Virus record (IMG/VR): IMGVR_UViG_3300037189_004592
Span: 1 to 25,740 of that record
DNA: 25,740 nt
Reading direction: 5' to 3' (one strand)
From: a virus
The position numbers and the translations under genes are program-made. Below the pieces are notes generated by a model that saw only the letters and a list, made by a program, of their open reading frames with translations, was not told the DNA's origin and did no database searches. Below are positions 1 to 25,740 of this stretch, piece by piece. Within the stretch, counting starts at the first letter, position 1, and the number at the start of each line of letters is the position of its first letter.

Positions 1-1749
1 GGAGACCTTCAGCGTCGCGAGGCCGCAGCAGAGGAACTTGCCGCTAAGGCAGCCGAAGCAGCGAGCCGCGTGATGGGTATGGGCGAGGACGACATGGAAG
101 AGGACATGGCACCCGAAGAGGAAGTAGTTCCTGCTGAAGACATGCCCGAAGCCCCTGTTGCCCCGATGGAAGAGGACGAGGAAATGAAAACCTACGCCGC
201 AGAATCCACCGAAGCGTCTGCTATCACTGAAGAAGTTGCTGAATTCTCAGCCGACCCAGAGGACCCCGCAGTAGAGACGTCGGAAGACGCCCCTGCTGAA
301 GAAGTAGAGGCTCTTGAAGCCTCAACCGAAGCCGTCGAAGAGTTCGCGGCCGAAGAAATTATTGAAACCACTATTGCGCCAGAGGCGCAGGAAGAGCAGG
401 CACCCGTGACCGCCGCAGCAGAAGGGTCTTTCGAGGCCCCAGCGTCGCACCAGCCTGTAATTAAGGTTTCGGAAGTGGCACCCGTGGCAATCACGGCTGG
501 CGCTGACATTCCTGGTTACACCGCTGGTAGCACAATTGCCAACATGCACGAAGTTGCTTCGGCAATGGAGAAACGTCTCCACTCGCTTCGTCGTGTTAAC
601 GGTGGAGATGGCGAGCAGCACATTGTTGCTTCATTCTCTACCTCATACCCAGAAGCACGTACCCTTTCGACTAGTGCGGAAGAAAACGCGTCCAAGATTG
701 ACGCCGTTGTCGGACCAGAAGCGCTTGTCGCTTCGGGTGGACACTCGGCTCCTTTCGAGGTCAAGTACGACATCTTTGGGTTCGGAACCACCGAGCGCCC
801 CGTGCGCGACGCACTGCCGAAGTTCCAGGCAGACCGTGGCGGTATCCGTTACATCACTCCCCCGTCGCTTGTTTCCTACTCAGGCGGAACTGTCTACAAC
901 TATGACAGTGCCGTTGGCGTTTGGACTGCAGCGAACGACTCGGCTCAGACACCAAACCCCGCAACCAAAGGCAGCCTGACTGTCGCGTCTGCTGCTGAGG
1001 AGACGGTTGCTACTGACGCTGTTACGCTTCAGTTGCAGTTTGGTAACCTGATGACCCGTGCGTACCCTGAGTTGATTTCTCGCCACAACGAACTTGCTCT
1101 TATCCAGCACGCTCGTGAAGCAGAACTCTACCTTATCTCCAAGATTGCTTCTGGCTCGACGGCTGTCAACGCTCACGTTGCCACCACCGAGGCTGCAAAC
1201 CTTATCGGTGTCGCTCGCGACTTCTTGGTTCAGGTTCGCAAGGCGGCAGCGGCTTACCGCTCGCGTCACCGTCTTTCGGTTGACCTTCGACTCAAGGCTA
1301 TTGTTCCTTCGTGGCTCTACGATGCAATGTCGGCAGACCTCGCACTGAACATGCCTGGTGACGGAAACCTTGCTGTTGGCCGTTCCGAAATCGAGGGTTA
1401 CCTCTCGTCCGTCGGTGTCGACCTCGTTCCTTCGCCTGACCTCGCATCGTTTGGTGCTCAGCAGGGTTCGGCAGCGAAACTCCTTGAGTTCACGGACTCG
1501 TTTACGTGGTACCTGTTCTCCGAAGGAACGTTCCTGTTCCTTGACGGTGGAACGCTGGACCTCGGAATCATCCGCGACTCGACGCTCGTCGGAACCAACG
1601 ACTACAAGATGTTCATTGAAACATTTGAAGGCGTTGCCAAGGTCGGTATCGAATCACTCGCCATCACCACGGCCATTTCGGTCAACGGTGTGGCTGCTGC
1701 TCTCCGCGACACCACTGGTGGCGCAACCGCAGCCGCTATCGAAGAGTAA
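1..1749 (+). CDS. Major capsid protein with acidic N-terminal scaffold-like region (5' partial)
   Basis: The frame is open from base 1 to the TAA at 1747-1749 (582 codons visible), so the true start lies left of the window; the GTG at 70 is only the first internal start-like codon. The first ~28 codons are Ala/Glu/Arg-rich and look helical. Codons ~30-130 are very rich in Glu, Ala and Pro, as in scaffold or delta domains. From about codon 165 (ITAGADIPGY) the sequence becomes an ordinary folded protein with FEVKYDIFGFG, PPSLVSYSGG, LISRHNELALI and a C-terminal IETFEGVAKVG stretch, which I recognise as actinophage HK97-fold major capsid protein. Role: forms the icosahedral shell, with the N-terminal part probably acting in assembly and being removed. 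Codon use is strongly biased to C-ending codons, as expected for the most abundant virion protein. A strong hairpin follows the stop. The fold assignment is by recall, not by a search. Confidence 0.8.
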   Translation, partial: GDLQRREAAAEELAAKAAEAASRVMGMGEDDMEEDMAPEEEVVPAEDMPEAPVAPMEEDEEMKTYAAESTEASAITEEVAEFSADPEDPAVETSEDAPAEEVEALEASTEAVEEFAAEEIIETTIAPEAQEEQAPVTAAAEGSFEAPASHQPVIKVSEVAPVAITAGADIPGYTAGSTIANMHEVASAMEKRLHSLRRVNGGDGEQHIVASFSTSYPEARTLSTSAEENASKIDAVVGPEALVASGGHSAPFEVKYDIFGFGTTERPVRDALPKFQADRGGIRYITPPSLVSYSGGTVYNYDSAVGVWTAANDSAQTPNPATKGSLTVASAAEETVATDAVTLQLQFGNLMTRAYPELISRHNELALIQHAREAELYLISKIASGSTAVNAHVATTEAANLIGVARDFLVQVRKAAAAYRSRHRLSVDLRLKAIVPSWLYDAMSADLALNMPGDGNLAVGRSEIEGYLSSVGVDLVPSPDLASFGAQQGSAAKLLEFTDSFTWYLFSEGTFLFLDGGTLDLGIIRDSTLVGTNDYKMFIETFEGVAKVGIESLAITTAISVNGVAAALRDTTGGATAAAIEE

Positions 1750-1776
1750 ATCGACAGATAGCACCCCACGTAGGCG

Positions 1777-1804
1777 GTGGGTGGCCCTTTCGGGGGTCAC
1801 CCAC
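1777..1804 (+). terminator. Hairpin downstream of the major capsid gene
   Basis: Bases 1777-1787 pair with 1794-1804 in an 11-bp stem with one G-U pair, closing the six-base loop TTTCGG. It lies 27 bp after the capsid stop and 39 bp before the next start. No run of T follows, so it is not a textbook intrinsic terminator. It may be a leaky terminator or an mRNA 3' stabiliser that lets the capsid message exceed the downstream ones. Confidence 0.5.
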
Positions 1805-1843
1805 TCCCCACAAAAAATCTGACAAAGATAAAGGATTTCAAAC

Positions 1844-2725: not shown

Positions 2726-2745
2726 AAATAAGGAGAATAGTCCTA

Positions 2746-3897: not shown

Positions 3898-3910
3898 CCA
3901 CAAAGTAGCG

Positions 3911-3953
3911 AGGCGGTGCGTTTTGGTTACACACAGGCCAAGGCGCACCGCCT
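3911..3953 (+). terminator. Long hairpin downstream of the tail tube gene
   Basis: Bases 3911-3926 pair with 3938-3953: ten perfect pairs, two T-G wobbles, then four more pairs, closing an 11-nt loop (3927-3937). It begins 14 nt after the stop codon and ends 23 nt before the next start. No T-run follows, so it may attenuate or process the transcript rather than fully terminate it. It parallels the hairpin after the capsid gene. Confidence 0.55.
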
Positions 3954-3976
3954 TACTCAATAAATAAGGAACAGAC

Positions 3977-5080: not shown

Positions 5081-5122
5081 TTGTACAATAGAACTATAAT
5101 CCTAAACAGATAAGGCAAGAAA

Positions 5123-5293
5123 ATGACTGAAAGCCAGACCAACTTCCGCGCAACAGACATGCCCAGTGCTTCTAGAGTGACCGCAACCCCAGCAACAATT
5201 GCTAGGTTTGTTGCCCCTAAGCAACCAGTTGGTCCTACGCCAACAGTTGAGGACGCCCCTGTTGCGGATGTCGAGGTTGCTGAGGAAGCCTAA
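5123..5293 (+). CDS. Small 56-aa protein of unknown function
   Basis: The reading frame starts at ATG 5123 with AAGG at 5112-5115 upstream, ends with TAA at 5291-5293, and the next gene starts 2 nt later. This spacing and the absence of any other gene in this gap make it likely to be real. The protein is rich in Pro, Val, Ala and Thr (ARFVAPKQPVGPTPTVEDAP) and ends with an acidic DVEVAEEA tail; it has no predicted membrane segment and is probably disordered. The acidic Ala/Glu/Val-rich tail recalls the N-terminal region of the capsid protein. I do not recognise a family; a small neck or assembly factor is possible from position only. Confidence 0.55.
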   Translation: MTESQTNFRATDMPSASRVTATPATIARFVAPKQPVGPTPTVEDAPVADVEVAEEA

Positions 5294-7151: not shown

Positions 7152-10130
7152 GTGGCAGTAGTAGGTGAAGCCCACGTCATAGTACGTGCTCTGACCAATA
7201 AAGTCAGTGACGATATTCGTAAAGGTTTTGACGGAGTTCGTGGTGACATTGCTGCTCGCACTGGGGCTGACCTCGGTGATAAGTTTACTGCTGGATTCAA
7301 TAAAAACGTTGGCGTTAACATTTTTACAAGAATTTCTGATGGCATTGCGTCTATGGCTCCATCAGCGCAGGCTGCCAGACTGCAACTAAACTCTCTCATT
7401 AAAACTGGTTACAAAATGACCGTAGGTTTTAGTCTTATTGCTGGCACTATCGGCGTTGTTGTTGGTGGTCTTGGCGCATTAATTGGCGCTGCTGGTGGCG
7501 CTGCCGCTTCTTTGACTGCCTTGATTGGGACTATGGTTTCCCTCAAAGTGGGGAGCGGTCTCGCTGGCTTTGCTATGAAGGGTGTTGGGGAGGCAGTATC
7601 TTCCGCTGGACAGGCTAGTGGTGTGAGTGCAAAAAGCGTCAAAGAACTTCGCGAAGAAATGCAACAATTGCGTTTTGAGGCTGAAGAAGCCGCCCTTGCC
7701 GAAGAAGAGTTTGGTTTACGTCTAGAGCAGGCTAGGGAGAGCCTAGCCAGAACTGCCGATTTACCAGTCAACTCAATGGCGCGACGCGAAGCAGAACTAA
7801 ACTTCAAGCAGGCGGAACTTGCGTATCGTCAGGCTAAAGATAGAACCAAAGACCTAAATGCCGAAGTAAAAAAAGGCGTTCAAAGTGGGACAGCGGCTGG
7901 TGGTGCTGACCCCTTTGCCCAATTGACCGCAAGCCAAAAGAAATTTGCCCAGTTTTTAATTACCTTAAGACCAATTATTAGCGACTTGAGAGAGCGGGTT
8001 GCTAGTGGGTTCCTTCCAGTTTTGGAAAAACAACTTAAAAGAATTGTTGACTCCGACCTGCTTGGTGTTGTTGAAAAAGGTTACAGCGGAATAGGTGACG
8101 CTCTAGGAAAAGCAGTCAAAGGTTTCACTGGACAAATACTGAAGCCAGAAACACTTGAAGATTTGGGTGGAGTTTTTTCTGACATTGAGTATGTTGTCGG
8201 TAAGTTTGGAAAAACTTTTGGTAAGTTTTTTAGAATATTTTTGAAACTGCTCGACGCTTCTGGACCTTTAATTAGGGATTTTTCTGACTACCTAGACGGT
8301 TTAGCAACTAGGCTCCTAAAATTCCTAGACGGTTTTAGTAACACTGAACTTGAAGATTTCTTTACCCGCGCCGGGGATATTGCTGGAAAGTTTGGTCAAA
8401 TTTTTAGAAATGTTTTTGACGGTCTAAAAGCAATTATTATGGCTAACTTTGGACCTGGCAGCGGTGGGGATATGCTCCTCGACTTCCTTATTGAGTCGAC
8501 AGAGGGGTTTGCAAAACTGGGAGACGACGCCGAGGGACTTGAAACTTACTTTAAAAAGGTTTCTGACAACCTTATTATAATTCTTGATGGCGTTGGAGGA
8601 ATGTTTTCTGGCCTCTCTGCTTTGGGAGAAAACGAAGGAATTGGACAGTTCTTTGACAGAATTAAAGACGCTGGGCCGTCTATCGGAAATATTGCTACAA
8701 AGGGTTTAGAAGCACTTCCCGCTGTTGCCGATTTGGTTGTCGAATTTGCTGATTTAGTTGACAAATTGACAGACAGCGGAGCAATTAAAATTTTCTTTGG
8801 AATTATAGAAGACGCAATTAATGTAATTGGTGACCTACTTCAAAATAAATGGGTTGCTAATATTCTTATTTTCTTTGGACAGATTAAGGCCATCACTCTC
8901 GCTTTGGGCGTTTTAAAAAGTGCATTTGATTTAGTCGGGCTAAGCATTTTGGGAAACACTGGTCTTGCTACTGGCTCTATTGGTACCGTTATTGACGGAA
9001 CTAAACTTTTGGCTGTCGGCGCGGGGGACGTCAGCAGAGTTTTTAAAGACTCATTCAAGCAAGCAGGAAAAAGTGGTACTGGATTTTTTACAACCTTAAG
9101 GGGCGGGCTTGGTGCACTTTCTTTCAGCACCTCTGGCTTTGCTAGGTCCATTGGCTCTATTGGGGGGGCACTCCTACGTGGTGTGGGGGCACTACTTAGT
9201 CCCGTCGGACTGGTAGTAACTGCAGTTGCTCTTTTAATTGGGTATTTTGTCAACCTGTACAACACAAATAAACAATTTAGGGATTCTTTTATACCTGTAT
9301 TTGAAGCAATAGGGAACGCTATAGGTGCAATTGAGATTGCTCTACAACCCATAATGACTGCTTTTGATGAACTATATAACAACCACATCAAGCCACTTCT
9401 TTTTGGTCCAAACGGAAATGACGGTCTAATCTCAGGACTTTCTGATTTTGTCGCAAACGTACTCCCCTTAGTAATTAATGCAATTACTGGACTACTCGTA
9501 CCAGCAATTGAGTTTTTGGTTGGGGTGACAGTGAATGCAATGCAATTTTTTGGTGACTTCTTTGAAGGAGTCAAGGGAATGTTTGCTGGAATTCTTCAAA
9601 TGTTCACAGGTGATTTTATTGGCGGGCTAAGAACTGCACTGGTTTCTTTCGTGTCAATTATTTTGTCAATTATGGATTTTGTTGCAAACTCAATTGTCAA
9701 TGTTGCAAATTTTATGATTCAAAAAATTAATGAAGCATTGCAATCTATTGATGGCACACCGCTCGGTGACTTCATACGAGACACTTTTGGATTTGACGTT
9801 GGCGTTGGAATTCCGTTGCTTCCTCAATCTAATATGGCTTCCGCAGCCATTGCTTCACTCGGTCTCGCAGAGGGTGGAATTGTCAGCCCCCGTGGTGGTG
9901 GCACTATGGCATTGATTGCTGAGGCTGGACGTCCAGAGCGTGTTGAGCCTCTTGACCCCGACGGTCTATCGAAGCGTGACAAGGCTATGATTCAATTTTT
10001 GACAAACGGCACTGCTGGTGGTGGAGTCAATATCACTGTCAACCCGTCTGCTGGCATGGACGAGACGGAACTTGCTGCTGTTATTTCCCGACGACTTGCT
10101 TACGAACTACGTAGAGGTTCTACCGCATAA
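7152..10130 (+). CDS. Tail tape measure protein
   Basis: 992 aa, starting at GTG 7152 with AGGGGGTGAG just upstream. The N-terminus (HVIVRALTNKVSDDIRKGF) is typical of phage tape measures. Residues ~90-145 are hydrophobic and Gly/Ala-rich (membrane-active type), ~160-240 form a charged coiled coil, and further hydrophobic stretches lie at ~660-705 and ~772-857. The C-terminus carries LAEGGIVSPRGG, AEAGRPERVEPL and VNITVNPSAGMDETELA, common at the end of actinophage tape measures. No lysozyme or peptidase domain is evident. By the usual ~1.5 Angstrom per residue rule, a tail near 150 nm is expected. Codons are A/T-ending far more often than in the capsid gene. The TAA overlaps the next ATG by one base. 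Confidence 0.9.
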   Translation: MAVVGEAHVIVRALTNKVSDDIRKGFDGVRGDIAARTGADLGDKFTAGFNKNVGVNIFTRISDGIASMAPSAQAARLQLNSLIKTGYKMTVGFSLIAGTIGVVVGGLGALIGAAGGAAASLTALIGTMVSLKVGSGLAGFAMKGVGEAVSSAGQASGVSAKSVKELREEMQQLRFEAEEAALAEEEFGLRLEQARESLARTADLPVNSMARREAELNFKQAELAYRQAKDRTKDLNAEVKKGVQSGTAAGGADPFAQLTASQKKFAQFLITLRPIISDLRERVASGFLPVLEKQLKRIVDSDLLGVVEKGYSGIGDALGKAVKGFTGQILKPETLEDLGGVFSDIEYVVGKFGKTFGKFFRIFLKLLDASGPLIRDFSDYLDGLATRLLKFLDGFSNTELEDFFTRAGDIAGKFGQIFRNVFDGLKAIIMANFGPGSGGDMLLDFLIESTEGFAKLGDDAEGLETYFKKVSDNLIIILDGVGGMFSGLSALGENEGIGQFFDRIKDAGPSIGNIATKGLEALPAVADLVVEFADLVDKLTDSGAIKIFFGIIEDAINVIGDLLQNKWVANILIFFGQIKAITLALGVLKSAFDLVGLSILGNTGLATGSIGTVIDGTKLLAVGAGDVSRVFKDSFKQAGKSGTGFFTTLRGGLGALSFSTSGFARSIGSIGGALLRGVGALLSPVGLVVTAVALLIGYFVNLYNTNKQFRDSFIPVFEAIGNAIGAIEIALQPIMTAFDELYNNHIKPLLFGPNGNDGLISGLSDFVANVLPLVINAITGLLVPAIEFLVGVTVNAMQFFGDFFEGVKGMFAGILQMFTGDFIGGLRTALVSFVSIILSIMDFVANSIVNVANFMIQKINEALQSIDGTPLGDFIRDTFGFDVGVGIPLLPQSNMASAAIASLGLAEGGIVSPRGGGTMALIAEAGRPERVEPLDPDGLSKRDKAMIQFLTNGTAGGGVNITVNPSAGMDETELAAVISRRLAYELRRGSTA

Positions 10131-14035: not shown

Positions 14036-14060
14036 TAAATAGTAGAATAAAAAGACATTT

Positions 14061-16373
14061 ATGGTAAACGCAGACTCACTAACCCCTGAGTACAGGTTTT
14101 TTACAACCGACCTATTGACTAACAAAATTTTGTCAGAGGTGCCGTTCAGTGGCGTCAACTATCAACTTTCACTTATCAACTCTGGAAGTTTTTCAGGAAC
14201 CGTTCCCGTTGATTCAGAGTCGAGAAAATACGACTTATACAACAGCACTATGCCGGGCAAAACGGGTTTGTATATTCTGCGAAACGGTATTTGTGTGTGG
14301 GGCGGAATTATTTGGTCGAGAGAGTATGACCTAGAATCCCGCAGGCTTTCAGTAAACGCAAATGAGTTTACAAGTTACCTGTACCACAGAACCATTTGGA
14401 AAACTTTTACCACGGCTTTTTCCGGGGAACTAAAAGTTTCTACTGACCCCGGTGCTGAAGCAACTATCTCTATTGCTACTGGCGTCCCTTATGACATTCT
14501 TGAAGGTCAGGCTGTACGAATTGTTTTTGCTTCTGAACTTTCAAATCTCAACGGTTACTTCTCGGTGCTAAAAAACTCTACTGACGATGAAATTTACATA
14601 AACCCAGCAGACAGGTTCTACAAACTAACGTCAAAGCGTGTCACTGGATACAAAAAAGGTAAGCAGATTGCTACCGTAAGACTGTGGACCGAATCCGCAA
14701 ATGAACTAAAAATTGGTGACAGTTTTACAATCAGTGGCGCAAACATTGAAAGACTAAACGGGACGCACAGCGTTGTCACCGTAAACGATAAGTATTCGGT
14801 AACTATTCGCACCACTGGTGGTTACAAAGGTCTAAAAGCAGTAGACGATAAGAAAAAATCTTTAGGTTCAAAGGCTCGTTTGACAATCAACGGCTCGGTT
14901 CCACCTGGAAGTTATTCCGTATCGGTTTATTTGAGAACCACCATTTTTGATTTTGTCAAAGGCCTTATTGATTCTATGGGTAAAGATTTTACAGGCATTG
15001 AATTTCCTAACGCTTTTATTGAAGCGGGGCAGACTTTTGGCTACGACGTCGATTCATACAAAGTCAATGGGGGTCTGGCTACTCTCACTACGTCCACACC
15101 ACACGGACTGACCGCTAGCCAAAAAATCAACGTGTTGAACGTTGTCCCAGAGATAAACGGCGAGCGGGAAATTTTAGAAATTATTGACGAGAACACTTTT
15201 ACTTTTAGAACAAACACAAACTTTATTGCGTACGCAACGATTACTCCACGTCAGTACGCAATTTCTAAGAGGGTTACTTCTCGATTGGTGACCACCTACA
15301 CGACGTCCACTAACCACAATCTCAAAGTTGGTGACACAATTACGATTGAAAACGTCCCCGACATTACGAGAAGAATTGACAGAAACACCAACAGAACTGA
15401 CGTTTATACGGGTAACTACATTGTTACTGCGGTTACTGCTCAAAACCAGTTCTCACATAAAACTTCTGTCCCCGCTGACGACTCTATTACTTACACAACG
15501 TTGGCAAAGAACCCGAACCCGTACGTAATCTCTTACCCGACAGTTACGCTGGGAACTTACGGTCCTTACCCTCAGTTTGCTGACCTTGGTTTCACATTTG
15601 ACCGTGCCGACGAAGAATTTTTTGACGTTGATATTTCTACTACTGGTGTTCGCGGGTTCAATCTAACTTCTGTTGGCGAGTTCCTTGATACTTTTGCTAG
15701 TTCTTCTGCTGGCGGTACTGGTTTTGATTACCGTATCGAGTGTCGGTATGACGGAACTTTGAACAGGTTTTCACGGGTGTTCAAGTTTGTCCCCAACATA
15801 ACAGGGTTTACAGACGAAGAGGCCGAAGCGGGACTTAAATATTTAGGTGCTGATAAAACAATCTTTGAGTATCCCGGCAACATTTCTTCGTTCTCAATCA
15901 GCGAGTCGGCTGAAGATGCTATGACCAGAATGTTTGTTGTGGGAAATAAGGAGGGTCTGAGCGAAGAGGCTTCCCAACCGTATTCTGCTGCTTCGTCTAT
16001 TGCTCTTCAGTATGGGTGGCCGATATTAGACGCGACAGAAGACGCTTCTGATATCGAAGACGAAGACATGCTTGCTTTAGTGGCAAGTCGTCAGGTGGGG
16101 GAATCTATTCCGCCAATTATGGATTTCAGCATTAGTATCAACGGCTCACTTGACCCTGTGGTTGGCTCCTACTACCCGGGGCAATGGTGCTCTATAATTG
16201 TAGATGACGAGTTTGTGCGAATGAGATTAGAAAGTGACTTTGAGCCACGTAAGGACGCCCTGTTGAGAAGAATTATGTCTATCAAAGTTTCAGTTCCTGA
16301 TTCATCAACTTTCCCTGAAAAGGTCAGTCTTGACTTGGTTCCCGAATTGGAGGTGAACGGTTTTGCCCAGTAG
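14061..16373 (+). CDS. Minor tail protein, tail-associated (Tal-like) hub
   Basis: 770 aa, ATG 14061, with only a weak purine-rich ribosome site. The first ~115 residues contain FSGVNYQLSLINSGSFSGTV and LYILRNGICVWGGIIW, the pattern found at the start of actinophage Tal/gp37-like hub proteins that close the tail tip. Later segments FDYRIECRYDGTLNRF (~residue 555) and NISSFSISESAEDAMTRMFV (~605) are the usual second half of this family. Between them lie four copies of the repeat that is also present in the neighbouring tail genes. Role: central tip protein, opened at adsorption. No peptidase or lysozyme motif seen, so it may be purely structural. Confidence 0.7.
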   Translation: MVNADSLTPEYRFFTTDLLTNKILSEVPFSGVNYQLSLINSGSFSGTVPVDSESRKYDLYNSTMPGKTGLYILRNGICVWGGIIWSREYDLESRRLSVNANEFTSYLYHRTIWKTFTTAFSGELKVSTDPGAEATISIATGVPYDILEGQAVRIVFASELSNLNGYFSVLKNSTDDEIYINPADRFYKLTSKRVTGYKKGKQIATVRLWTESANELKIGDSFTISGANIERLNGTHSVVTVNDKYSVTIRTTGGYKGLKAVDDKKKSLGSKARLTINGSVPPGSYSVSVYLRTTIFDFVKGLIDSMGKDFTGIEFPNAFIEAGQTFGYDVDSYKVNGGLATLTTSTPHGLTASQKINVLNVVPEINGEREILEIIDENTFTFRTNTNFIAYATITPRQYAISKRVTSRLVTTYTTSTNHNLKVGDTITIENVPDITRRIDRNTNRTDVYTGNYIVTAVTAQNQFSHKTSVPADDSITYTTLAKNPNPYVISYPTVTLGTYGPYPQFADLGFTFDRADEEFFDVDISTTGVRGFNLTSVGEFLDTFASSSAGGTGFDYRIECRYDGTLNRFSRVFKFVPNITGFTDEEAEAGLKYLGADKTIFEYPGNISSFSISESAEDAMTRMFVVGNKEGLSEEASQPYSAASSIALQYGWPILDATEDASDIEDEDMLALVASRQVGESIPPIMDFSISINGSLDPVVGSYYPGQWCSIIVDDEFVRMRLESDFEPRKDALLRRIMSIKVSVPDSSTFPEKVSLDLVPELEVNGFAQ
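14447..15475 (+). repeat. Four protein-level beta repeats in the Tal-like gene
   Basis: Copies at about 14447-14610, 14656-14820, 15060-15220 and 15280-15470. The third reads GLATLTTSTPHGLTASQKI, nearly the consensus of the first tail-tip gene; the fourth has HNLKVGDTITIENVP. The first two are more diverged (YDILEGQAVRI, NELKIGDSFTISGA). Confidence 0.6.
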
Positions 16374-19300
16374 ACGGTATCGCTCACGTAAGAGTCTTGG
16401 GACGAGACTAAATAAGATTCGCTATTCGGTTAGCAAGACTGAAAACACAAGTATTCCTACCGTTGTCGGTAATAATTCAATCAACACATATTCGTTTACT
16501 AAAAATGCTGTCAGCACTGACTATATGACTAGTGGGTCTGTTGACTCAACAACGTATTCTCTTTCAGCATATTTGCCGGGCGGTGAGACTAATCAACGTG
16601 TGCCAGCGCCACTAAATGATGTCACGTATTGGACGCAAGTGGTTGAGGGAAGAGTCGAACTACACCAATCTGGAATTCACGGTGACGGGGAACTAGAAGA
16701 CATTCAAAACGTTTCTGCTGGACTTGATGGTCTTATTTTTGACCCTACGGACGGCGATGCCAGAATTTATTTGACTGGTCGTTTAGAAGTTCCTAAAAGT
16801 AGAAAAGTTTACGGAACGTGGAACTCTGTCGGCAACGTTCCCATAAAACTTATTTACTGGGAGCAAACCCCAGAATACTTTGTAGAGTCTGCATATAGGT
16901 CTGATGGGATTACACACTTAGACCTTAGTGATATCACTCACACACTAGGCGTTGGCGACCTCATTACTGTCACTAAAACTACTGATGATTTTGATGGACT
17001 TTATCGAGTAGTTGAAGTCAAGGCTGACTATGTTTCTGGAGTTACATATGAGCAAAGATACACGCTCACTGTTGACGATTCAGCATATGACGTCGACACT
17101 AATACTGTTACCTTTACTTTGAGTGGCGAGAACCCAACTACAACAGTTATCAAGCCGAACGACCTTGTAGTTCTCTCTAGTGTTGCAGGCTACGAGTCTC
17201 TTGCTGGTCCCCACAGAATTCTTACGGTTGATGACACTACTACGGCAAACACTATTGTTTTTACTTTTTCTGGTTCGTATACTGCTGACGTCGACAACTT
17301 TTATAATACGGTTAGCGCCACTGTTTACACTGGTGTCCCCACTGACACTGTAAACCAGCAGAACTTTAATCCTCTAGGGGTTGCTTCCGAAGACATTTAC
17401 CACTACATAGAACTAGACAATGGCTCCGTTTGGGGGGCAGACGGCTACACATTCCCGATTACGTCAGCGGTGCTTGTCGACGATGTTGCCACTATTACTA
17501 CCGCTTTCCCCCACTATGCCAGCGTAGGAGACACCATTACGGTGGGCGGTTTAGATGAGTCCACTAATCAATTTGCGACGACTACCGTTGTCGACGTATT
17601 TGATGTATTTGATGCGCCAATTATTGCTGTCAACCAAGCAAACAAAACTATTTCTTACTATCAAGCCTCTACTCCAACCGACATACCACCGCCTGAATAT
17701 GAGGCTAAAAACTTTGGTCCATCAACAGCAACAGTAAAATCGTTTGCCGTAACTACTAACGCCAAAACCCCGCAACAATATGCTGTGTATGCAGAAGTTC
17801 TTCAAGGGGCAAACGTTGCCTATTTAACTGAAGCAAAAGTTTTTGAAGTTGTCGGTGAACCCCCCTTTGTTTTGGATGATTACGTTGTTACCGCAATTAA
17901 TCTAAATGTTGTTGTTCTACCAGGAGATTTAGCAAATGCTTACGCGACTCTTACTTCACCTCTACCGTCAAGCGTAAAAAAATTTATTTTGAGGTTTGCC
18001 GACCCGACGTTCTCTTTTTTGAACGGCTCCTACATTGTCCGAGGAGTTAGTGGCAACGACGTTTACTTTACCGACCCCTCTAGTAGTACATACTCAGGGG
18101 CAGCAATTGGTGTTTTGACAGCGCAAATACCATCTAAAAATTATGAAATGTCACCTAATGGGCTTGTTTTTTATGCTGAAAATGACACTGTTCAGACAAG
18201 ACTTGGGTCAGTTGATTTAGATGAAATTACTCTGGCTAATGCGTCTATTGATGTGACTGGAGTTGCCAGTTTTACGGACGTCTCCACTGGTGCTCTCTAT
18301 TCAACTGAGCCAAGTTTTTTTGAGGCAAACACGACGTTCAATGCTGAAGTAAAAATTTATAGCACGCTGACTAACACGACTAATAATCTTTACGGCACTG
18401 CTGATTTGGCTCGCTACCACGACTTGGCAAACGCTGCTACCAACTCTCCCTACACAGCGACAAGTAATGTTCGGTCCTACACTGGTGATATTCTCAACAG
18501 ATTTGCTCGCGGTCTAATTTATTCCGCCAACTTTGGTATTTTCACCGATAACGGTCTTTTGAATGCTACTAACGACAGGACTACTTTTGCTGCTGGCTCT
18601 TTTACGTTGGACGCAAATAGAAACTATCTTTTTGTAATTTCATTTGGAAATTTGCGTGTAGTATCCACTTCTAACGTTGACTCGCGGATTGAGTTTATTG
18701 CCAGCAGCAATCCTAACGCAACGGCAAACTACGCACTCAACACGATGGACGCCAATAACTACGCTTATGTAAAGCAAACTGTCAACTTTGACGATAACAG
18801 TGGTGCCTATTCAGTCAACCCAATGGTCTTTGATTACACGTCAACCAGCGCTTCTCTATCTAACGGAATGACCAATTATTTGGTTCAATCTGGAGTGGAA
18901 ATTTTTTGGCAAATTAGGCACACGTACAACTCGACTGCCACGAGAAGCACTCTCGCTTTCCGAGAATTTGGGTCAGCAAAAAGTGGGATTTCTATTTACG
19001 ATATGGGTCCAGCAGTTACCTCGCAGATTGGTAGCCACGGAAGTGGTGAAGCAAGATTCCTCAGCGAAGGGACATTCGCTGGTGGGGGTGGTGGCTCTGG
19101 CACGACCCCCTTTACAGTGACCGTGGCACGAACATCGCTCGACAGTGCTTACTACGACAACTATGGTAAAGGTGACGGCGGTACAAGCGACCCGTATGCA
19201 AACGAAAACTCTATTTATCAAGGTAACCCAGGTACAGCATCTGGGACTAAGAAATCCCACGTCACCTTTGAGGCGGTTAGCACTCTCGTTGGTCTAAACA

Positions 19301-19701
19301 ATGCCAGCATATATACCAATACAGCACCGTATAGTGCTTTTGCAATCACAAAGATTGAAGTTTATTTGAGAAACAGGCACTCGTACAATGCTTCGGGATT
19401 ATCAGCAAAAATTGGATTCACCGCAGACGGAAGTGTTGGCTCAAGCATTCCTGCCGCTGCTGATGGGTACAACCCAACCTCGTCCTCATTCAGTAAAGGT
19501 CAAGGAAAATGGGTTACGTTGCCAAGTTCTTGGTATAGCGCCATTGCTGGGACTGGAACGTGGGGAATTCTGCTTGGTCTGACTGATGACAACCCAGACA
19601 CGTATGACGGCACGTTGGCAAACTACGGCTACTTTGACGGTGACAACCAATCGGACCCACCGCAGTTTAGATTGACATACACATACAACGTCACGGCCTA
19701 A
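16363..19701 (+). CDS. Large minor tail protein, probable receptor-binding tip/fibre
   Basis: 1112 aa. The start is TTG 16363, chosen because GGAGGTGA at 16349-16356 is one of the best ribosome sites in the window and lies 6 nt upstream; it overlaps the previous gene by 11 nt. The N-terminus is basic (PSRRYRSRKSLGTRLNK). Residues ~180-435 contain three diverged copies of the shared beta repeat. Residues ~640-900 are beta-rich with aromatic residues. A Gly-rich linker (GGGGGSG, ~residue 907) leads to a C-terminal beta-sandwich-like domain ending PPQFRLTYTYNVTA. The last-gene position in the tail block, size and modular C-terminus suggest the host-recognition protein. This role is inference; no catalytic motif was recognised. 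Confidence 0.65.
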   Translation: MPSRRYRSRKSLGTRLNKIRYSVSKTENTSIPTVVGNNSINTYSFTKNAVSTDYMTSGSVDSTTYSLSAYLPGGETNQRVPAPLNDVTYWTQVVEGRVELHQSGIHGDGELEDIQNVSAGLDGLIFDPTDGDARIYLTGRLEVPKSRKVYGTWNSVGNVPIKLIYWEQTPEYFVESAYRSDGITHLDLSDITHTLGVGDLITVTKTTDDFDGLYRVVEVKADYVSGVTYEQRYTLTVDDSAYDVDTNTVTFTLSGENPTTTVIKPNDLVVLSSVAGYESLAGPHRILTVDDTTTANTIVFTFSGSYTADVDNFYNTVSATVYTGVPTDTVNQQNFNPLGVASEDIYHYIELDNGSVWGADGYTFPITSAVLVDDVATITTAFPHYASVGDTITVGGLDESTNQFATTTVVDVFDVFDAPIIAVNQANKTISYYQASTPTDIPPPEYEAKNFGPSTATVKSFAVTTNAKTPQQYAVYAEVLQGANVAYLTEAKVFEVVGEPPFVLDDYVVTAINLNVVVLPGDLANAYATLTSPLPSSVKKFILRFADPTFSFLNGSYIVRGVSGNDVYFTDPSSSTYSGAAIGVLTAQIPSKNYEMSPNGLVFYAENDTVQTRLGSVDLDEITLANASIDVTGVASFTDVSTGALYSTEPSFFEANTTFNAEVKIYSTLTNTTNNLYGTADLARYHDLANAATNSPYTATSNVRSYTGDILNRFARGLIYSANFGIFTDNGLLNATNDRTTFAAGSFTLDANRNYLFVISFGNLRVVSTSNVDSRIEFIASSNPNATANYALNTMDANNYAYVKQTVNFDDNSGAYSVNPMVFDYTSTSASLSNGMTNYLVQSGVEIFWQIRHTYNSTATRSTLAFREFGSAKSGISIYDMGPAVTSQIGSHGSGEARFLSEGTFAGGGGGSGTTPFTVTVARTSLDSAYYDNYGKGDGGTSDPYANENSIYQGNPGTASGTKKSHVTFEAVSTLVGLNNASIYTNTAPYSAFAITKIEVYLRNRHSYNASGLSAKIGFTADGSVGSSIPAAADGYNPTSSSFSKGQGKWVTLPSSWYSAIAGTGTWGILLGLTDDNPDTYDGTLANYGYFDGDNQSDPPQFRLTYTYNVTA
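16899..17670 (+). repeat. Three protein-level beta repeats in the third tail-tip gene
   Basis: Copies at about 16899-17080 (HTLGVGDLITVTK, FDGLYRVVEV), 17104-17270 (IKPNDLVVLSSVAG, GPHRILTVDD) and 17464-17670 (VATITTAFPHYASVGDTITV). They match the module in the two preceding genes and in the tail tube extension. Confidence 0.55.
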
Positions 19702-19720
19702 TAATAGTGAGTGTCACCAA

Positions 19721-19753
19721 TAAACAAACCGCAATTCTGATACCATAATGGTA
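19721..19753 (+). promoter_or_regulatory. Candidate promoter with overlapping inverted repeat at the virion/replication boundary
   Basis: TAAACA at 19721-19726 and CATAAT at 19744-19749 are separated by 17 bp and match the -35 and -10 consensus at four and five of six positions. The -10 lies inside a perfect inverted repeat TACCAT-A-ATGGTA (19741-19753), which could be an operator. This 74-bp gap is the longest between 16 kb and 22.9 kb, and the gene content changes here from virion proteins to replication. It precedes the 19776 gene. Confidence 0.4.
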
Positions 19754-19775
19754 ACGATGGAACGAAAGAGAAAAA

Positions 19776-20249
19776 ATGTATGAAGTAAAGGACGGGTCAC
19801 GAACACTCCAGTTTGACGGTGTTCTGCTAGGGAAGTCATCTTCCTACCGACGTGGCTCATCCCGTTGGATTGAGTTCGAATTGTACCGAACCGAGAGTGG
19901 TTCATACATTCTTTCCCGTGTCGGCGTCTCTCTCGTCTACCACGGCGCTGCTTGCCCGTCAGTAAAGAAATATGGGCTTCAGGAAATCAGTTTTCTTGAA
20001 CTTGAAAATTTAGCAATTCCTTGCGACAAATGCTACCCAACCGAAGACGTCGACCTTGTGTTTCCCGAAAAGGACAGATATTGGGCGCAAGTTAGCGACG
20101 AAGCAGACGCAGTGCTCGACGCTCTGTACCAATACGATGACAATGGCAGTGCCAGATATCTCACCAATGTTGCTCAGCGGCTCCTCGAAGAAGCCTCCCG
20201 CAAAGACTCACAGATTGAATCTGTATATAAAATAGAAGTAATCCCATAG
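19776..20249 (+). CDS. Unknown protein with a possible His/Cys metal site
   Basis: 157 aa; GAAAGAG at 19764-19770 precedes the ATG. I do not recognise a family with certainty. The first half is beta-rich (RWIEFELYRTESGSYILSRVG). H56, C60, C83 and C86 (YHGAAC...IPCDKC) have the spacing of a small zinc-binding site. The C-terminal half is acidic and helical. It is the first gene after the virion block and lies 17 nt before the next gene. A nucleic-acid-associated accessory role is possible, but it is only inference from position and the Cys/His pattern. Confidence 0.6.
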   Translation: MYEVKDGSRTLQFDGVLLGKSSSYRRGSSRWIEFELYRTESGSYILSRVGVSLVYHGAACPSVKKYGLQEISFLELENLAIPCDKCYPTEDVDLVFPEKDRYWAQVSDEADAVLDALYQYDDNGSARYLTNVAQRLLEEASRKDSQIESVYKIEVIP

Positions 20250-20266
20250 AAAGCGGAGAGAAAAAT

Positions 20267-20593
20267 ATGGCTGAAGAGGAACCGAATGAGACCCCTGAGC
20301 CAGAACTAGTTCCTGCTATTGAGATAACAAATTTATCTAGTATCACTATACAAATTCACGAACTCTATTTAGAACTAAAAAAATCTGGATTTAAGGCTAG
20401 CGAAGCCCTAACCCTTACGGGCATGGTGTTGTCTAGTAGCGCAGCAGTAGATTTTATTGACTATCCTTTAGGTAGCAGTGGTACTAGTGAGACAGCAGTC
20501 GGTCAGATAGTGGTACTTGATTCTGACATAGAGGAAGACGATGAAGAATTTGGCGAATGGGACAAGTTTTTTGATAACCCAGACCCGCAGTAG
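20267..20593 (+). CDS. Small acidic protein of unknown function
   Basis: 108 aa, with GCGGAGAG upstream of the ATG. The N-terminus is Glu/Pro-rich and the C-terminus ends in a run of Asp and Glu (DSDIEEDDEEFGEWDKFF); the middle has one clear amphipathic helix pair (IHELYLELKKSGFKASEALT). There is no membrane segment or Cys cluster. It is co-oriented between the 157-aa gene and the DNA polymerase, with short gaps, so it is probably in the same operon. Function not known. Confidence 0.55.
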   Translation: MAEEEPNETPEPELVPAIEITNLSSITIQIHELYLELKKSGFKASEALTLTGMVLSSSAAVDFIDYPLGSSGTSETAVGQIVVLDSDIEEDDEEFGEWDKFFDNPDPQ

Positions 20594-20625
20594 ATAGTCC
20601 CCACAAAACGACGGAGAGCAAAAAT

Positions 20626-22482
20626 ATGAATGACGGACTCAGAAACGTGCAATTGCACCTTGTCAATAACGTCGACGAGGCACGTGCTTTTCTTTCGTGG
20701 CTTGGCGAACGTCGACCTATGGACGCTATTGCCGTGGACATTGAGACGGGAGAACTTCCGGGGCGCCCTACAAAAGACGCGCTTTCTCCGTGGCACGGAC
20801 GTATCCGTTTGGTACAGGTGGGTGACGGTCAGACTGGTTGGGCAATTCCGTGGGATGAATGGTCTGGCGTTTTTTACGAAGCAATGAATAAATTTAACGG
20901 TCCCATCGTTTGCCACAACGTTGCGTTTGAAGCGCGTTGGTTTGACATTCAATCACGTTGGGGTATCCCGTGGCACCGCGCTCACGACACAATGATTATG
21001 GCGCAAGTAATTGACCCGCTTGGCTCTGGTGCGCTGAAGCGTCTGACTTCTCAGTACGTTGACTCAAAGGCCGCTGCCCTTCAGACCCACCTTGATGTTT
21101 CGCTTAGGGAGAATGGCTGGACGTGGGGAAGTGTCCCCGTCAACTTTGAGCCTTACTGGGCGTATGGTGCGCTTGACACAGTTCTCACTATGCGTTTGTT
21201 TGAGCAGTTTTGGGAAAAATGCGGTACGGGAAAAATGTACAGCATTCCATATGAAATTGAAATGGCGGCACGAAAAATTGTTACCCGAATGGAAATCAAC
21301 GGTGCTCGTGTGGACCTTGACTACTCAAAGCAGAAGTTCGATGAACTCAATAAATATGGTGAGTTGGTGCGCGACTGGGGTATGAAAAACTACGGTAAGT
21401 CTGTCACTAGCAATATTCAATTGGTAGGAATTTTTGAAAGTCTTGGCGCTAACATTACCGAGACCACCCCTTCTGGACAAAAATCTGCTTCTGCCGACCA
21501 ACTTAAAATGCTGTTGCGCGACGGCACGCCAGAGATTAAGCAGTTGGCTGACGTCGTTCTCAAGCAACGTAAAGCCGACAAGTTGGCTAACACATACTTT
21601 AAAAACTTTCTTGAAGGCAACATTGACGGGTTTGTTCACCCGTCTGTAAAAACACTTGGCGCTCGTACTGGGCGTATGTCAATTACTGACCCTGCTCTGC
21701 AAACTCTTCCTGCGGGGGACGCCACTGTGCGTCGTGCGTTCTTGCCTAAGGACGACGACCACGTTATTTTGTCGTCCGACCTCGACCAAGTGGAGTTCCG
21801 TCTTACCGCAAACTTTAGCCGTGACGAGCAACTTATCAATCTGTTTAATGAAGCAGACGCAACTGGTGGCGACGTGTTTACGTCGATTATGCGTCAGATT
21901 TACGCAGACGACACACTCCAAAAGTCAGACCCCCGACGCAAATTGGTTAAGGGCGTTGTCTACGGAAAACTGTATGGTGCTGGCATAGCGACTATGGCCC
22001 TCACCGCTGGTGTTTCTGACGCGCAAATGAAAGATGTAGTTGAGGCATTTGATTCCAACTACCCCGGTGTCAAGAAAATGTCTTCCGAAATCGAGGACGT
22101 TGGCACGCAACGACTTCGTTCTGAGGGAGTTGGCTACGTCTACACAAAAACTGGACGTCGACTTCCGTGCGACGATGACCGCGTGTATTCGCTGACTAAC
22201 TATCTGATTCAGGCAAGTGCCGCTGAAATCTTTAAGCAGAACCTTATTAAACTCGACCAAGCAGATTTGACGGAACTTCTTATTGTTCCTGTACACGACG
22301 AAATTGTGTTGAACTGTCCTAAGGACAGCGTTGAGGAAGTCAAGCACCTTGTTCAACAGTGTATGACTACGCGAGAAGAGTGGGAAGTTCCGCTGACCGC
22401 TGGTGTTGATGGTCCTTTCTCTAACTGGGGAGAAAAGTACGAATTAGGAGATGGTAGTGACTCGGTACGTCCTAGCAATTGA
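20626..22482 (+). CDS. polA: DNA polymerase I family (family A) with 3'-5' exonuclease domain
   Basis: 618 aa; CGGAGAG precedes the ATG. Exonuclease motifs are present: D38/E40 (VDIETGE), N98...D107 (HNVAFEARWFD) and Y180-x3-D184 (YGALD), so proofreading is probably active. TGRMSITDPALQTLP leads into polymerase motif A, D385 with Q388 and E390 (DLDQVEFRL). Motif B is R438-x3-K442-x3-Y446-G-x2-Y450-G, and motif C is H557-D558-E559. There is no 5'-3' exonuclease domain, as is usual for phage enzymes. Y446 sits where E. coli Pol I has Phe762 and T7 polymerase has Tyr. It replicates the phage genome. The end overlaps the next gene, which suggests coupling. Confidence 0.95.
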   Translation: MNDGLRNVQLHLVNNVDEARAFLSWLGERRPMDAIAVDIETGELPGRPTKDALSPWHGRIRLVQVGDGQTGWAIPWDEWSGVFYEAMNKFNGPIVCHNVAFEARWFDIQSRWGIPWHRAHDTMIMAQVIDPLGSGALKRLTSQYVDSKAAALQTHLDVSLRENGWTWGSVPVNFEPYWAYGALDTVLTMRLFEQFWEKCGTGKMYSIPYEIEMAARKIVTRMEINGARVDLDYSKQKFDELNKYGELVRDWGMKNYGKSVTSNIQLVGIFESLGANITETTPSGQKSASADQLKMLLRDGTPEIKQLADVVLKQRKADKLANTYFKNFLEGNIDGFVHPSVKTLGARTGRMSITDPALQTLPAGDATVRRAFLPKDDDHVILSSDLDQVEFRLTANFSRDEQLINLFNEADATGGDVFTSIMRQIYADDTLQKSDPRRKLVKGVVYGKLYGAGIATMALTAGVSDAQMKDVVEAFDSNYPGVKKMSSEIEDVGTQRLRSEGVGYVYTKTGRRLPCDDDRVYSLTNYLIQASAAEIFKQNLIKLDQADLTELLIVPVHDEIVLNCPKDSVEEVKHLVQQCMTTREEWEVPLTAGVDGPFSNWGEKYELGDGSDSVRPSN

Positions 22483-22912
22483 CCCTGGCAAGACTACGGG
22501 TATGGCTTTGTTTTCAATAAAAAATGGTGAAGACCCCGAACTTTTGTGGAGTGGTGAGAAAGATTTTGTTGAGTTTGCCGACAAAACACGAATGACTTTT
22601 ATGCAGTACCCAACCCTTGAGGTGGTCTGCGAAAAGTTTACAATTAATATGCAGACCGCTAAAAAGTCTCAAGCACCGTACAGTCTTGAGTGTATTGGGG
22701 CATTGAAGTTGATTCTTGTGGACAGGGGGCGTGACCCCGAATCTCTCAAGTTTCAGTTGCCTGCCAATGCCATGAGTATGTTTACTAACGAGAAACTAAA
22801 AAAACTTGAGTATTGGCATCGTGGTGGTGCGGGACACGCACTTGACGCAATTAGGCACGGTTTGCTGTATTTGGTAATGACTGGGTGGATGCCTAGAAAA
22901 CTTCTTGAGTAG
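22457..22912 (+). CDS. RuvC-like RNase H-fold nuclease (Holliday junction resolvase-like)
   Basis: 151 aa from GTG 22457, preferred because AGGAG at 22446-22450 is 6 nt upstream; ATG 22451 directly abuts this site and is less suitable. It overlaps the polymerase gene by 26 nt. The acidic residues expected of the RuvC/RNase H fold are visible: D9 in AIDPGKTTG, E59 in VVCEKFTI, and D130 in GHALDAIRHG. Length and motif order match phage RuvC-type resolvases, which cut branched DNA formed by replication and recombination before packaging. The position between polymerase and helicase fits. Exact substrate is not shown by sequence. Confidence 0.8.
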   Translation: MTRYVLAIDPGKTTGMALFSIKNGEDPELLWSGEKDFVEFADKTRMTFMQYPTLEVVCEKFTINMQTAKKSQAPYSLECIGALKLILVDRGRDPESLKFQLPANAMSMFTNEKLKKLEYWHRGGAGHALDAIRHGLLYLVMTGWMPRKLLE

Positions 22913-22951
22913 CCCTACTATCGCGTTTCGCAAATAAATAAAATTATTTTG

Positions 22952-22960
22952 TGCTAGTAT
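22952..22960 (+). promoter_or_regulatory. Candidate extended -10 promoter upstream of the helicase gene
   Basis: TG-C-TAGTAT (TG at 22952-22953, hexamer 22955-22960) fits an extended -10 element, in a 75-bp AT-rich gap after the resolvase-like gene and about 28 bp before the helicase ATG. No convincing -35 hexamer is seen 16-18 bp upstream, which extended -10 promoters can lack. AAAGGA at 22974-22979 is the ribosome site of the next gene. Confidence 0.35.
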
Positions 22961-22987
22961 GTACGTAATGACGAAAGGATTTATCCA

Positions 22988-24799
22988 ATGACTGTCGGTG
23001 TCGAACTTGATGACTCTGGAAAAAGTATTGTCATTAATTCTGATTGGCGTTTAAAAGAACTTTGTAAGAGTCTGCCGGGTTCGAGTTATGACTCAACAAA
23101 CCAGACTTGGCGCTTGCCCGTATCGTGGTCTGCTTGTTTAGCACTTCGCTCCACATTTCGTGATGATTTGGTCTTAGGTGAGCGTCTCACCGCGTGGGCA
23201 GTAAATGAACGCACAATTCGCATCGACCCAGCCAATGAACTTAGGGACGTTGAGGTTCTGCCAGACGGAGTTGGTGACCAAGACCTTTTCCCCCACCAGC
23301 GGGCTGGTGTTGAGTTTTTGGCAACTGCACGTCGCGCACTGCTTGCCGACGAACCCGGACTTGGTAAGACTGCCCAAGCAATCCGTTCTTTGAAAAAACT
23401 CAAGGACGGCGGTGAGGCTGTTTTTCCAGCCCTTATTGTCTGCCCAAACACCTTGAAGAAGAACTGGCAACGCGAGTTCAAAAAGTGGTGGCCTGATGTA
23501 AACGTTCAGGTAGTCCGTGGCACAACTAATCAGCGGCGCAAGCAGTTCGAAGAAGAAAACGTTGATGTTTACGTAATCAACTGGGAATCTCTTCGAACCC
23601 ACTCGCGCCTCGCACCTTTTGGTTCTATCGCACTGGCTCGTTGTAAAGCATGTAAAGGTCACGACGAACGAGTAACCGAGGGACGTTGCGAAGTACACGA
23701 ACGTGAACTCAACAGAATTGATTTTAAGGCAATAGTTGCCGATGAAATCCACCGTTCTAAAGACCCAAAATCTAAGCAGACTCGTGCTCTTTGGGCGGCG
23801 TCTGGGGAAGCGGATATTCGCTTTGCCCTGACTGGTACACCCATTGCAAACAACGTTCTCGATTTGTGGGCTATTCTTCACTGGCTCTCGCCTGACGAGT
23901 TCCCAAGCAAGACGCGCTGGATTGACCGTATGGTCGACACTATGCTCAATGCATTTGGCGGTCTTATGGTCTTGGGAATCAAGCCACACATGGAAGAAGA
24001 GTTTCAAGCAGTCATTAGACCCCGCATGCGTCGTATGCTCAAGCAGCGCGTGCTGCCTTGGCTTCCCGAAATGATGTTTGAGCGTCGTGACGTTGAGATG
24101 TCGCCAAAGCAGGGCAAAGCATACAAAGATATGCGAGAGCATATGATTGCGGAACTTGAAGGAAGTGGCGCTGTTGTAGCACCTAGCGTGCTTACACAAA
24201 CCACTCGTTTGATTCAGTTTGCCAACGCTTTTGCCGAGAACGTGGTAAACGAATCCACTGGCGAAATAAAGACCGTTTTGGCAGAGCCTTCTTGTAAAGT
24301 CGATGCTCTTATGGACGACATCAAGAACGGCGACTTCGGAGACGATGCGGTTGCGGTTTGTGCCGTATCTCGACAATTGATTGAATTGCTTAGCGCTCGT
24401 CTCACAAAAGAGGGCATCAATCACGGGTTGATTACTGGCGCTCAGTCGGAGGATGAACGTCAGCAAGCAGTAGATGATTTCCAGTCAGGGAGAACGAAAT
24501 GGATTCTTTTTACAGCGCAGGCTGGGGGTGTTGGAATTACCCTCACTGCTGGTCGACGTTTGGTAATGCTCCAACGTCCGTGGTCACTCGTAGACTACAA
24601 ACAGGCTATTGACCGTATTCACCGTATCGGTTCTGAAATCCACGACTCTGTTATTGTTATGGACTACGTAACTGAAGGAACTATTGAAGAACGAGTTATT
24701 CAGGTTCTCGACGAAAAGGCTGAGAACTTTGAACAAATTGTCCACGACAAAGAAAAACTGTTGGATTTACTGAAACAAGATAAGGCTGGTACTCTCTAA
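22988..24799 (+). CDS. SNF2-family DNA helicase/translocase
   Basis: 603 aa; AAAGGA upstream. Residues 1-70 include a short HARP-like DNA-binding segment (YDSTNQTWRLPVSW), as in SMARCAL1-type proteins. The ATPase core has FPHQRAGVEFL, Walker A D121-EPGLGKT (K127), Walker B D252-E-I-H, LTGTP (281-285), and the C-terminal lobe GGVGITLTAGRRLV with Q539, R543 and R546 in QAIDRIHRIG. Between lobe motifs, C219, C222, C234 and H237 form a possible zinc site inserted before the DEIH motif. Role: ATP-driven remodelling of DNA or of forked replication intermediates; it is not a replicative DnaB-type helicase. It is followed after 2 nt by the exonuclease gene. Confidence 0.9.
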   Translation: MTVGVELDDSGKSIVINSDWRLKELCKSLPGSSYDSTNQTWRLPVSWSACLALRSTFRDDLVLGERLTAWAVNERTIRIDPANELRDVEVLPDGVGDQDLFPHQRAGVEFLATARRALLADEPGLGKTAQAIRSLKKLKDGGEAVFPALIVCPNTLKKNWQREFKKWWPDVNVQVVRGTTNQRRKQFEEENVDVYVINWESLRTHSRLAPFGSIALARCKACKGHDERVTEGRCEVHERELNRIDFKAIVADEIHRSKDPKSKQTRALWAASGEADIRFALTGTPIANNVLDLWAILHWLSPDEFPSKTRWIDRMVDTMLNAFGGLMVLGIKPHMEEEFQAVIRPRMRRMLKQRVLPWLPEMMFERRDVEMSPKQGKAYKDMREHMIAELEGSGAVVAPSVLTQTTRLIQFANAFAENVVNESTGEIKTVLAEPSCKVDALMDDIKNGDFGDDAVAVCAVSRQLIELLSARLTKEGINHGLITGAQSEDERQQAVDDFQSGRTKWILFTAQAGGVGITLTAGRRLVMLQRPWSLVDYKQAIDRIHRIGSEIHDSVIVMDYVTEGTIEERVIQVLDEKAENFEQIVHDKEKLLDLLKQDKAGTL

Positions 24800-24801
24800 C
24801 C

Positions 24802-25740
24802 ATGACAAACAACGGAGTTACAAACGGCACTGTAGAAATTACAGGTGATGCCGAGCAACCATACCGCCTCTCTAACTCAGAGATTCAGGTATTTAAGGAC
24901 TGCCGTCGCAAGTGGTGGCTGGCCTACTACCGACGCCTACAGCCGAAGCAGAAAGACTTCACTGGTGCTCTTGCTCTTGGCTCTCGTGTCCATGAGGCGC
25001 TGGATATGCACTACTCAACTGGAAAAAACTTGCTTGAGGCACACTCCGAGTTGGTGGAAAAAGACTTGGGTAAAATGCAGGCAGAGTTTAGAGATACACA
25101 CAATCTTGAGGCTGAAGCCGAACTTGGGCGAATTATGCTTGAGGGCTACCTTGAGTGGGTGGCAGAAGAAGGAATTGACGCCGACCTTGAAATGATTTCT
25201 ACTGAAGAGATTATTGAAATGCCATTATTCGATGGCAAAGTAGTTCTTCAGGGAAAACTTGATATGCGTGTTCGACGTCGGTCAGACGGTGTGCGTATGT
25301 TCCGTGACTTCAAGACTGTGGGTGGCTCGTTCTCTGACTTTGGAAGTCAGGCTCAAATGAACGAGCAAATCAAGACATATATGCTTCTTGAGTCTGCTCA
25401 GAACAAATCCCCTGAGGAGCGTTCCGAGGGCGGTATCTTTACTATGCTCAAGAAGGTAAAGCGTACGGCTGCCGCACGCCCCCCCTTCTACGAGCAAATT
25501 GAAGTTCGCCACAATAACTTCACTATGCGAGCATTCTGGCAACAAATCCACGGAGTCATTCAAGACCTTCTCGGCGTCAAATCTAATCTTAATGCTGGTG
25601 GTGACTCAAACTTTCTTGCCTACCCACGACCCACGAAAGATTGCAAGTGGAAGTGTCAGTTCTACACTATTTGCCCGCTTATCGACGACGGTAGCGCCGC
25701 CGAGGCAGCAATTAGTGAGATGTATGTGGTCTCCGACCCA
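24802..25740 (+). CDS. Cas4/RecB-like PD-(D/E)XK exonuclease with Fe-S cluster (3' partial)
   Basis: Frame is open from ATG 24802 to the window edge (313 codons visible). Only 2 nt separate it from the helicase stop and no good ribosome site is seen, so translation is probably coupled. Motifs in order: C34 (FKDCRRKWWL), H64 (GSRVHEALD), D154 (GKLDMRV), D169-F-K171 (RDFKTV), Q189...Y193 (QIKTYML), and C281-x3-C285-x5-C291. The four Cys match the 4Fe-4S site of Cas4 and AddB-type nucleases, and D154/D169/K171 are the catalytic set. Such phage enzymes resect DNA ends in recombination. No cas1, cas2 or repeats are present, so a CRISPR role is not supported. Confidence 0.85.
   Translation, partial: MTNNGVTNGTVEITGDAEQPYRLSNSEIQVFKDCRRKWWLAYYRRLQPKQKDFTGALALGSRVHEALDMHYSTGKNLLEAHSELVEKDLGKMQAEFRDTHNLEAEAELGRIMLEGYLEWVAEEGIDADLEMISTEEIIEMPLFDGKVVLQGKLDMRVRRRSDGVRMFRDFKTVGGSFSDFGSQAQMNEQIKTYMLLESAQNKSPEERSEGGIFTMLKKVKRTAAARPPFYEQIEVRHNNFTMRAFWQQIHGVIQDLLGVKSNLNAGGDSNFLAYPRPTKDCKWKCQFYTICPLIDDGSAAEAAISEMYVVSDP

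Follow-up and report, generated by a model that had tools for sequence, protein, structure and literature searches.

The virus fragment analysed here, a stretch of 25,740 bases in IMG/VR (hereafter the window), contains neither AGCT nor GATC, and this absence is confirmed as real, strong and clade-wide. We consider it likely that the window's lineage was purged of restriction sites by selection, with Type II restriction in its hosts acting as the agent. The window itself is a piece of a tailed phage of Actinobacteria with a genome of about 130 kb, and its clade consists of uncultured viruses that infect actinobacteria, probably in freshwater.

Absence of AGCT and GATC from the window

String counting returned zero for both words, and because both are palindromes the counts hold for both strands.

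1..25740, no strand: no AGCT and no GATC over the full length (string count, codon-shuffle nulls)

The initial annotation had claimed that AGCT was missing throughout and that some 100 sites were to be expected by chance, and both statements held. The expected number of AGCT sites amounted to 90 under a maximal-order Markov model, 100 from base composition, and 105 ± 9 after shuffling of synonymous codons (with a minimum of 84 among 300 shuffles), the latter null preserving all proteins as well as codon usage. The corresponding values for GATC were 42, 100 and 64 ± 6, and shuffling codons within genes yielded 101 ± 8 AGCT and 63 ± 6 GATC sites. The constraint that it had predicted for codon choice (an NNA codon never preceding GCT) was borne out as well, with GCT used at 0 of the 121 NNA–alanine junctions while otherwise being the top alanine codon (300 of 760). 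Moreover, the general depletion of palindromes that would have spoken against a specific effect was not seen: ACGT (156 observed versus 153 expected), TCGA (86/88), GCGC (68/75) and ATAT (65/66) stood at expectation, so the loss of AGCT and GATC is specific. Depleted yet still present were CCGG (16/62), GGCC (19/64), TGCA (44/118) and TTAA (46/97).

Gene content and host group

The genes of the window, and its overlap with a second contig, are as follows.

1..1749, + strand: region of the major capsid protein, truncated at its 5′ end by the window boundary (gene order shared with phage DSL-LC01)
2746..3897, + strand: probable major tail protein (gene order only)
7152..10130, + strand: probable tape measure protein (gene order only)
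10130..19701, + strand: three large genes (10130-14035, 14061-16373 and 16363-19701), minor tail or structural by gene order
20626..22482, + strand: DNA polymerase I (68% identity to DSL-LC01, 61% to Microbacterium phage Pumpernickel)
22451..22912, + strand: probable RuvC-like resolvase (gene order shared with DSL-LC01)
22988..24799, + strand: SNF2-family helicase (PF00176, 3.4e-41)
24802..25740, + strand: PD-(D/E)XK nuclease (Pfam; counterpart at the equivalent position in DSL-LC01)
18114..25740, no strand: the window's last 7.6 kb, overlapping the end of contig G001 (58.9 kb) at 99.96% identity

A Pfam search gave no match for the capsid region (1..1749) or the putative tape measure gene (7152..10130). 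The order of structural genes, followed by the polymerase, RuvC-like, SNF2 and PD-(D/E)XK genes, is that of the 129-kb phage DSL-LC01 (OQ999401), an Actinomycetia phage that was assembled from a lake and is lysogenic by prediction (PMC10611076). The window shares its DNA polymerase I family with DSL-LC01 and with Microbacterium phages such as Pumpernickel. Given the length and identity of the overlap with G001, the genes of that contig were attributed to the window's phage.

Two findings place these viruses among the actinobacterial phages. The nearest named relatives infect Actinobacteria, the relatives of the window's polymerase being phages of Microbacterium and Arthrobacter, and the clade genomes G011 and G004 carry a WhiB gene, which has been used as a marker for assigning freshwater phages to Actinobacteria (PMC6802176). 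An archaeal host was considered, as AGCT and GATC are exactly the words methylated in a lake Nitrosoarchaeum (PMC6329791), but the tmRNA and WhiB genes of the phages ruled it out. Searching a genome collection for a host with either the phage ribonucleotide reductase or the tag-coding pattern of the phage tmRNA gave no match.

Distribution of the absent words among relatives

The double avoidance, for which a search of related contigs had been proposed, was found in every one of the 18 closest among 80 related contigs (L001-L013, L018, L022, L071, L077 and L080, with G001 included), all of which had 0 AGCT and 0 GATC. For the large clade genomes G004, G005 and G011 (132-135 kb), codon shuffling predicted 571-607 AGCT and 321-349 GATC sites versus none observed. 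Near sister contigs contained 76-127 AGCT sites per locus, close to expected, and more distant contigs were mostly near expectation; the AGCT-normal relatives have the same backbone as the window. Both states even occur under the same IMG dataset number (3300010885), with 0 AGCT in L022 and 110 in L047.

On a tree built from DNA polymerase I (20626..22482 in the window), the absence of AGCT required 2 changes, that of GATC 5, of CCGG 5 and of TTAA 3, which indicates that lineages lost different words repeatedly. The words missing in one lineage or another comprise CCGG, TTAA, ATAT together with TTAA, and GCGC. The ATAT and TTAA combination is that of DSL-LC01 (129 kb; L202, L204, L081 and L203), which differs from the window in having AGCT and GATC at normal levels and completely lacking ATAT (0 versus 126 expected) and TTAA (0 versus 121 expected). 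Since GATC is missing in several lineages that keep AGCT, the two zeros act as separate traits. The earlier proposal of two specificities therefore stood insofar as a second, independent palindrome is truly missing, the two zeros act separately and restriction is the best explanation, but the set of affected words exceeds two and extends to CCGG, ACGT, GCGC and CCWGG.

In the survey of Rusinov et al. 2018, complete or near elimination was encountered in approximately one in ten viral genomes and overwhelmingly concerned orthodox Type II sites, with elimination being defined as an observed/expected ratio <0.1 at about 15 or more expected sites (PMC6286503). With 0 of 90 AGCT and 0 of 42 GATC sites, the window falls within this definition, as do the relatives of complete size. 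The pattern described there also has the host carrying a matching enzyme and elimination being more pronounced in non-temperate phages. Like the surveyed cases, ours concerns short palindromes in a dsDNA phage at observed/expected <0.1 (PMC6286503). Unlike them, the clade entirely lacks between two and four 4-base palindromes at a time in genomes of up to 135 kb, and has sharply defined exempt contexts. Restriction-site elimination is thus a known strategy that is here unusually complete and multi-site, and the odd features are how many words are eliminated in genomes of this length, the contexts that are exempt, and the modification genes found alongside.

Replacement of AGCT in aligned genes and in tmRNA

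When aligned genes were compared with those of five AGCT-bearing relatives, 0 of the 85-120 AGCT sites were conserved in the window, compared with an average 4-mer conservation of 17-21%, and the replacements were varied and many of them synonymous. The tmRNA genes differed likewise, with three AGCT sites in G026, one in G023 and 0 in the clade tmRNAs, the difference between AGCT-bearing relatives and clade including a change from AAGCTTGTAG to AAGCGTGTAG. That tmRNA genes were purged too demonstrates selection on DNA rather than on codons. We found tmRNA genes in 11 of 29 sequences checked of this phage family (with tags such as AESRSAFALAA), for example at the following positions.

L083, 8422-8775: tmRNA
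L104, 8972-9311: tmRNA
L111, 12691-13036: tmRNA
L155, 17801-18097: tmRNA
L169, 11068-11405: tmRNA

These comparisons bear on whether the zeros might stem from biased mutation, from effects of codon use or base composition, or from faulty assembly, instead of selection on DNA sites. Some further palindromes of the window are indeed depleted, as such a bias would have it. Nonetheless, the codon-shuffle nulls expect 63-607 sites where 0 were seen, four palindromes are at normal levels in the window, the replacements are varied and reach into tmRNA, and the sequences stem from many source metagenomes, with AGCT-bearing and AGCT-free relatives in one dataset. We therefore rejected an overall loss of palindromes, an effect of codon usage and an artefact of assembly, and attach next to no probability to explanations of this kind.

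Contexts in which CCGG and GATC are tolerated

While CCGG is not absent from the window, its occurrence is restricted to one type of context.

1..25740, no strand: CCGG only within CCCGG/CCGGG (DCCGGH 0 of 38 expected; CCCGG or CCGGG 15/21; CCCGGG 1/3)

The three large clade genomes each had 0 DCCGGH sites versus 132-140 expected, with CCCGG/CCGGG at 49/61, 64/61 and 55/57, and throughout the clade CCGG remains almost solely with a preceding C or a following G. The distant contig G020 follows the same rule (DCCGGH 0/86; CCCGG/CCGGG 57/45), and in the relatives G016 and G030 CCGG is missing outright. CCWGG, unlike CCCGG/CCGGG, is strongly depleted in the clade (11/36 in the window and 12/101 in G001). 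Further words are missing in parts of the clade, namely ACGT in the sublineage contigs G005 (with one exception), G007 and G011, and GCGC in G003, G006 and G011. A comparable exemption was seen for GATC in two other relatives (L122-L135), where all 10 remaining sites of G028, and most of the residual sites of G027, are GATCG/CGATC. As a separate observation, three DCCGGH sites occur in G002 (L085-L087) but none in G004, to which it is near-identical by polymerase; this hints at a recent relaxation.

Tolerance of CCGG in one overlapping context only is what would be expected if methylation there blocks cutting. Judging from the sequence context, we infer that the tolerated CCGG sites may be shielded via methylation at an overlapping CCSGG motif. 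Such sharp exempt contexts are a new aspect of site elimination, and are best read as sites that would be shielded by overlapping methylation.

The probable agent of site elimination

Type II enzymes are known for AGCT, for GATC and for CCGG. What was observed is the complete, clade-wide absence of AGCT and GATC from protein genes and tmRNA, the presence of these words in relatives, the lineage-specific palindromes and the confinement of CCGG to CCCGG/CCGGG, and from these patterns we infer host restriction enzymes to be the agent. In some of the cells entered, Type II enzymes would cut unmethylated AGCT, GATC and CCGG, and each remaining site would reduce phage survival. Mutations destroying these sites, many of them protein-silent, would then be fixed until zero sites were left, with CCGG being tolerated where overlapping CCSGG methylation might shield it.

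The absent words and exempt contexts would in this way preserve, in readable form, which specificities of restriction and methylation a phage lineage has met, and each related genome seems to record the enzymes that its lineage met. Restriction of AGCT, GATC and CCGG, together with CCSGG-type methylation, is accordingly predicted in and around freshwater Actinobacteria, for which methylation data from Lake Biwa show none (PMC6329791). The Lake Biwa drafts of these bacteria, including hgcI/acI, contained no methylated motif and no methyltransferase, these drafts being incomplete (PMC6329791), and suggest that such systems may be missing from the most common candidate hosts.

With host enzymes not found and the Lake Biwa drafts unmethylated, we keep a low-probability alternative in which the phages themselves encode AGCT and GATC nucleases without matching methylation; these would destroy host or rival DNA, and the site-free phage would be immune to them. 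The absolute, clade-wide nature of the absence fits this quite improbable scenario, as do the many clade genes without family assignment and the fact that the chromosome of a host like the unmethylated freshwater actinobacterial drafts would be fully cuttable (PMC6329791). On the other hand, 70 clade-specific proteins yielded no match to the restriction endonuclease profiles of PADLOC (only to methyltransferase, 2OG and MADS-type profiles), such profiles being insensitive, and no restriction endonuclease appeared in Pfam results among 25 of 30 families listed for the clade-specific proteins. The window's own PD-(D/E)XK nuclease is a poor candidate AGCT cutter, since DSL-LC01 has such a nuclease in the same place and keeps AGCT and GATC. 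Cell-borne restriction is also a better fit to the CCSGG exemption and to the large number of palindromes that are partly depleted. More improbable still is the full version of this idea, namely that the phage uses sequence-specific nucleases as an attack on a methylation-free host chromosome, with its self-immunity written in its own sequence.

Modification genes accompanying elimination

Among 50 records subjected to a profile search, Mom-family genes (PF25680) were present in G001, G004, G005 and G011 and in 0 of 46 other records, several of the Mom-less clade contigs being short fragments. The best copy in each of the four scored E-values from 4.8e-45 to 2.5e-48, above cut-off, and the clade genomes carry one to three copies, of which one in G004 also matched the solved structure of Mu Mom (8bv8; E 8.5e-19). 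The clade thus resembles phage Mu in having clear Mom homologues. It differs in that the preference of Mu Mom fails to explain the surviving clade sites: Mu Mom prefers the context SASNY, and in this context the TGCA depletion of the clade was unrelieved, with which another Mom specificity remains compatible.

The same four contigs also carry an amino-methyltransferase (PF01555/PHROG 67). More generally, of the long contigs, 7 of the 8 depleted in GATC had PF01555 versus 0 of the 14 others, in three parts of the tree, a link that amounts to some three independent pairs and is statistically not strong. The link between Mom and AGCT absence, being a single evolutionary event, is not statistically strong either, and we treat both associations as leads. 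Avoidance should become weaker where DNA is modified (PMC6286503), whereas the two are found side by side here, which speaks against the preferred explanation. The presence of Mom-family and amino-methyltransferase genes beside elimination is new, and suggests that modification and elimination may be combined. As predicted from these genes, the base-modifying Mom-family enzyme and the amino-methyltransferases would protect other sites, with elimination being needed only for what modification leaves uncovered. The clade also offers a natural system for asking how the evasion of restriction is shared out between eliminating sites and modifying bases.

The amino-methyltransferases could also be taken to endanger the phage, if a methyltransferase of host or phage methylated sites in the course of infection and a DpnI-like enzyme then cut them. 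That they accompany a depletion of GATC at three places in the tree agrees with such methylation-dependent cleavage, which we nevertheless hold to be unlikely. Avoidance is weak for modification-dependent enzymes in the survey, GATC excepted (PMC6286503), further enzymes of this type would be required for AGCT and CCGG, and the CCSGG exemption points to protective rather than endangering methylation.

Other Mom-carrying phages gave a mixed picture, with eliminated sites in just 2 of 5 sampled, and a general link between Mom and elimination across phages was not retained. The two are Listeria phage LP-026 (GATC 1/118, GGCC 0/27) and Bacillus phage Riggi (CCGG 0/48, CGCG 0/26, GGCC 1/64), noted at loci L207 and L209; the three further phages had zero eliminated sites.

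As for other methyltransferases, no D12 or Dam family member was found, bar one Dam-like match with in-frame stops in G033, and no C5 methyltransferase was found in the clade. C5 and Dam-type methyltransferase matches with stop codons were noted in AGCT-normal relatives, at L169-L175 (G026) and L176-L179 (G033). A clade-only ABC-ATPase/GNAT protein (family 87) was examined as a Mom candidate, but does not belong to the Mom family PF25680 and had no clear structural match. It is one of the clade-only genes (families 87, 139, 140 and 141), which include this ABC-ATPase/GNAT fusion as well as histone-deacetylase-like and dual-specificity phosphatase-like proteins, and an S-adenosylmethionine synthetase is also among the clade-specific set.
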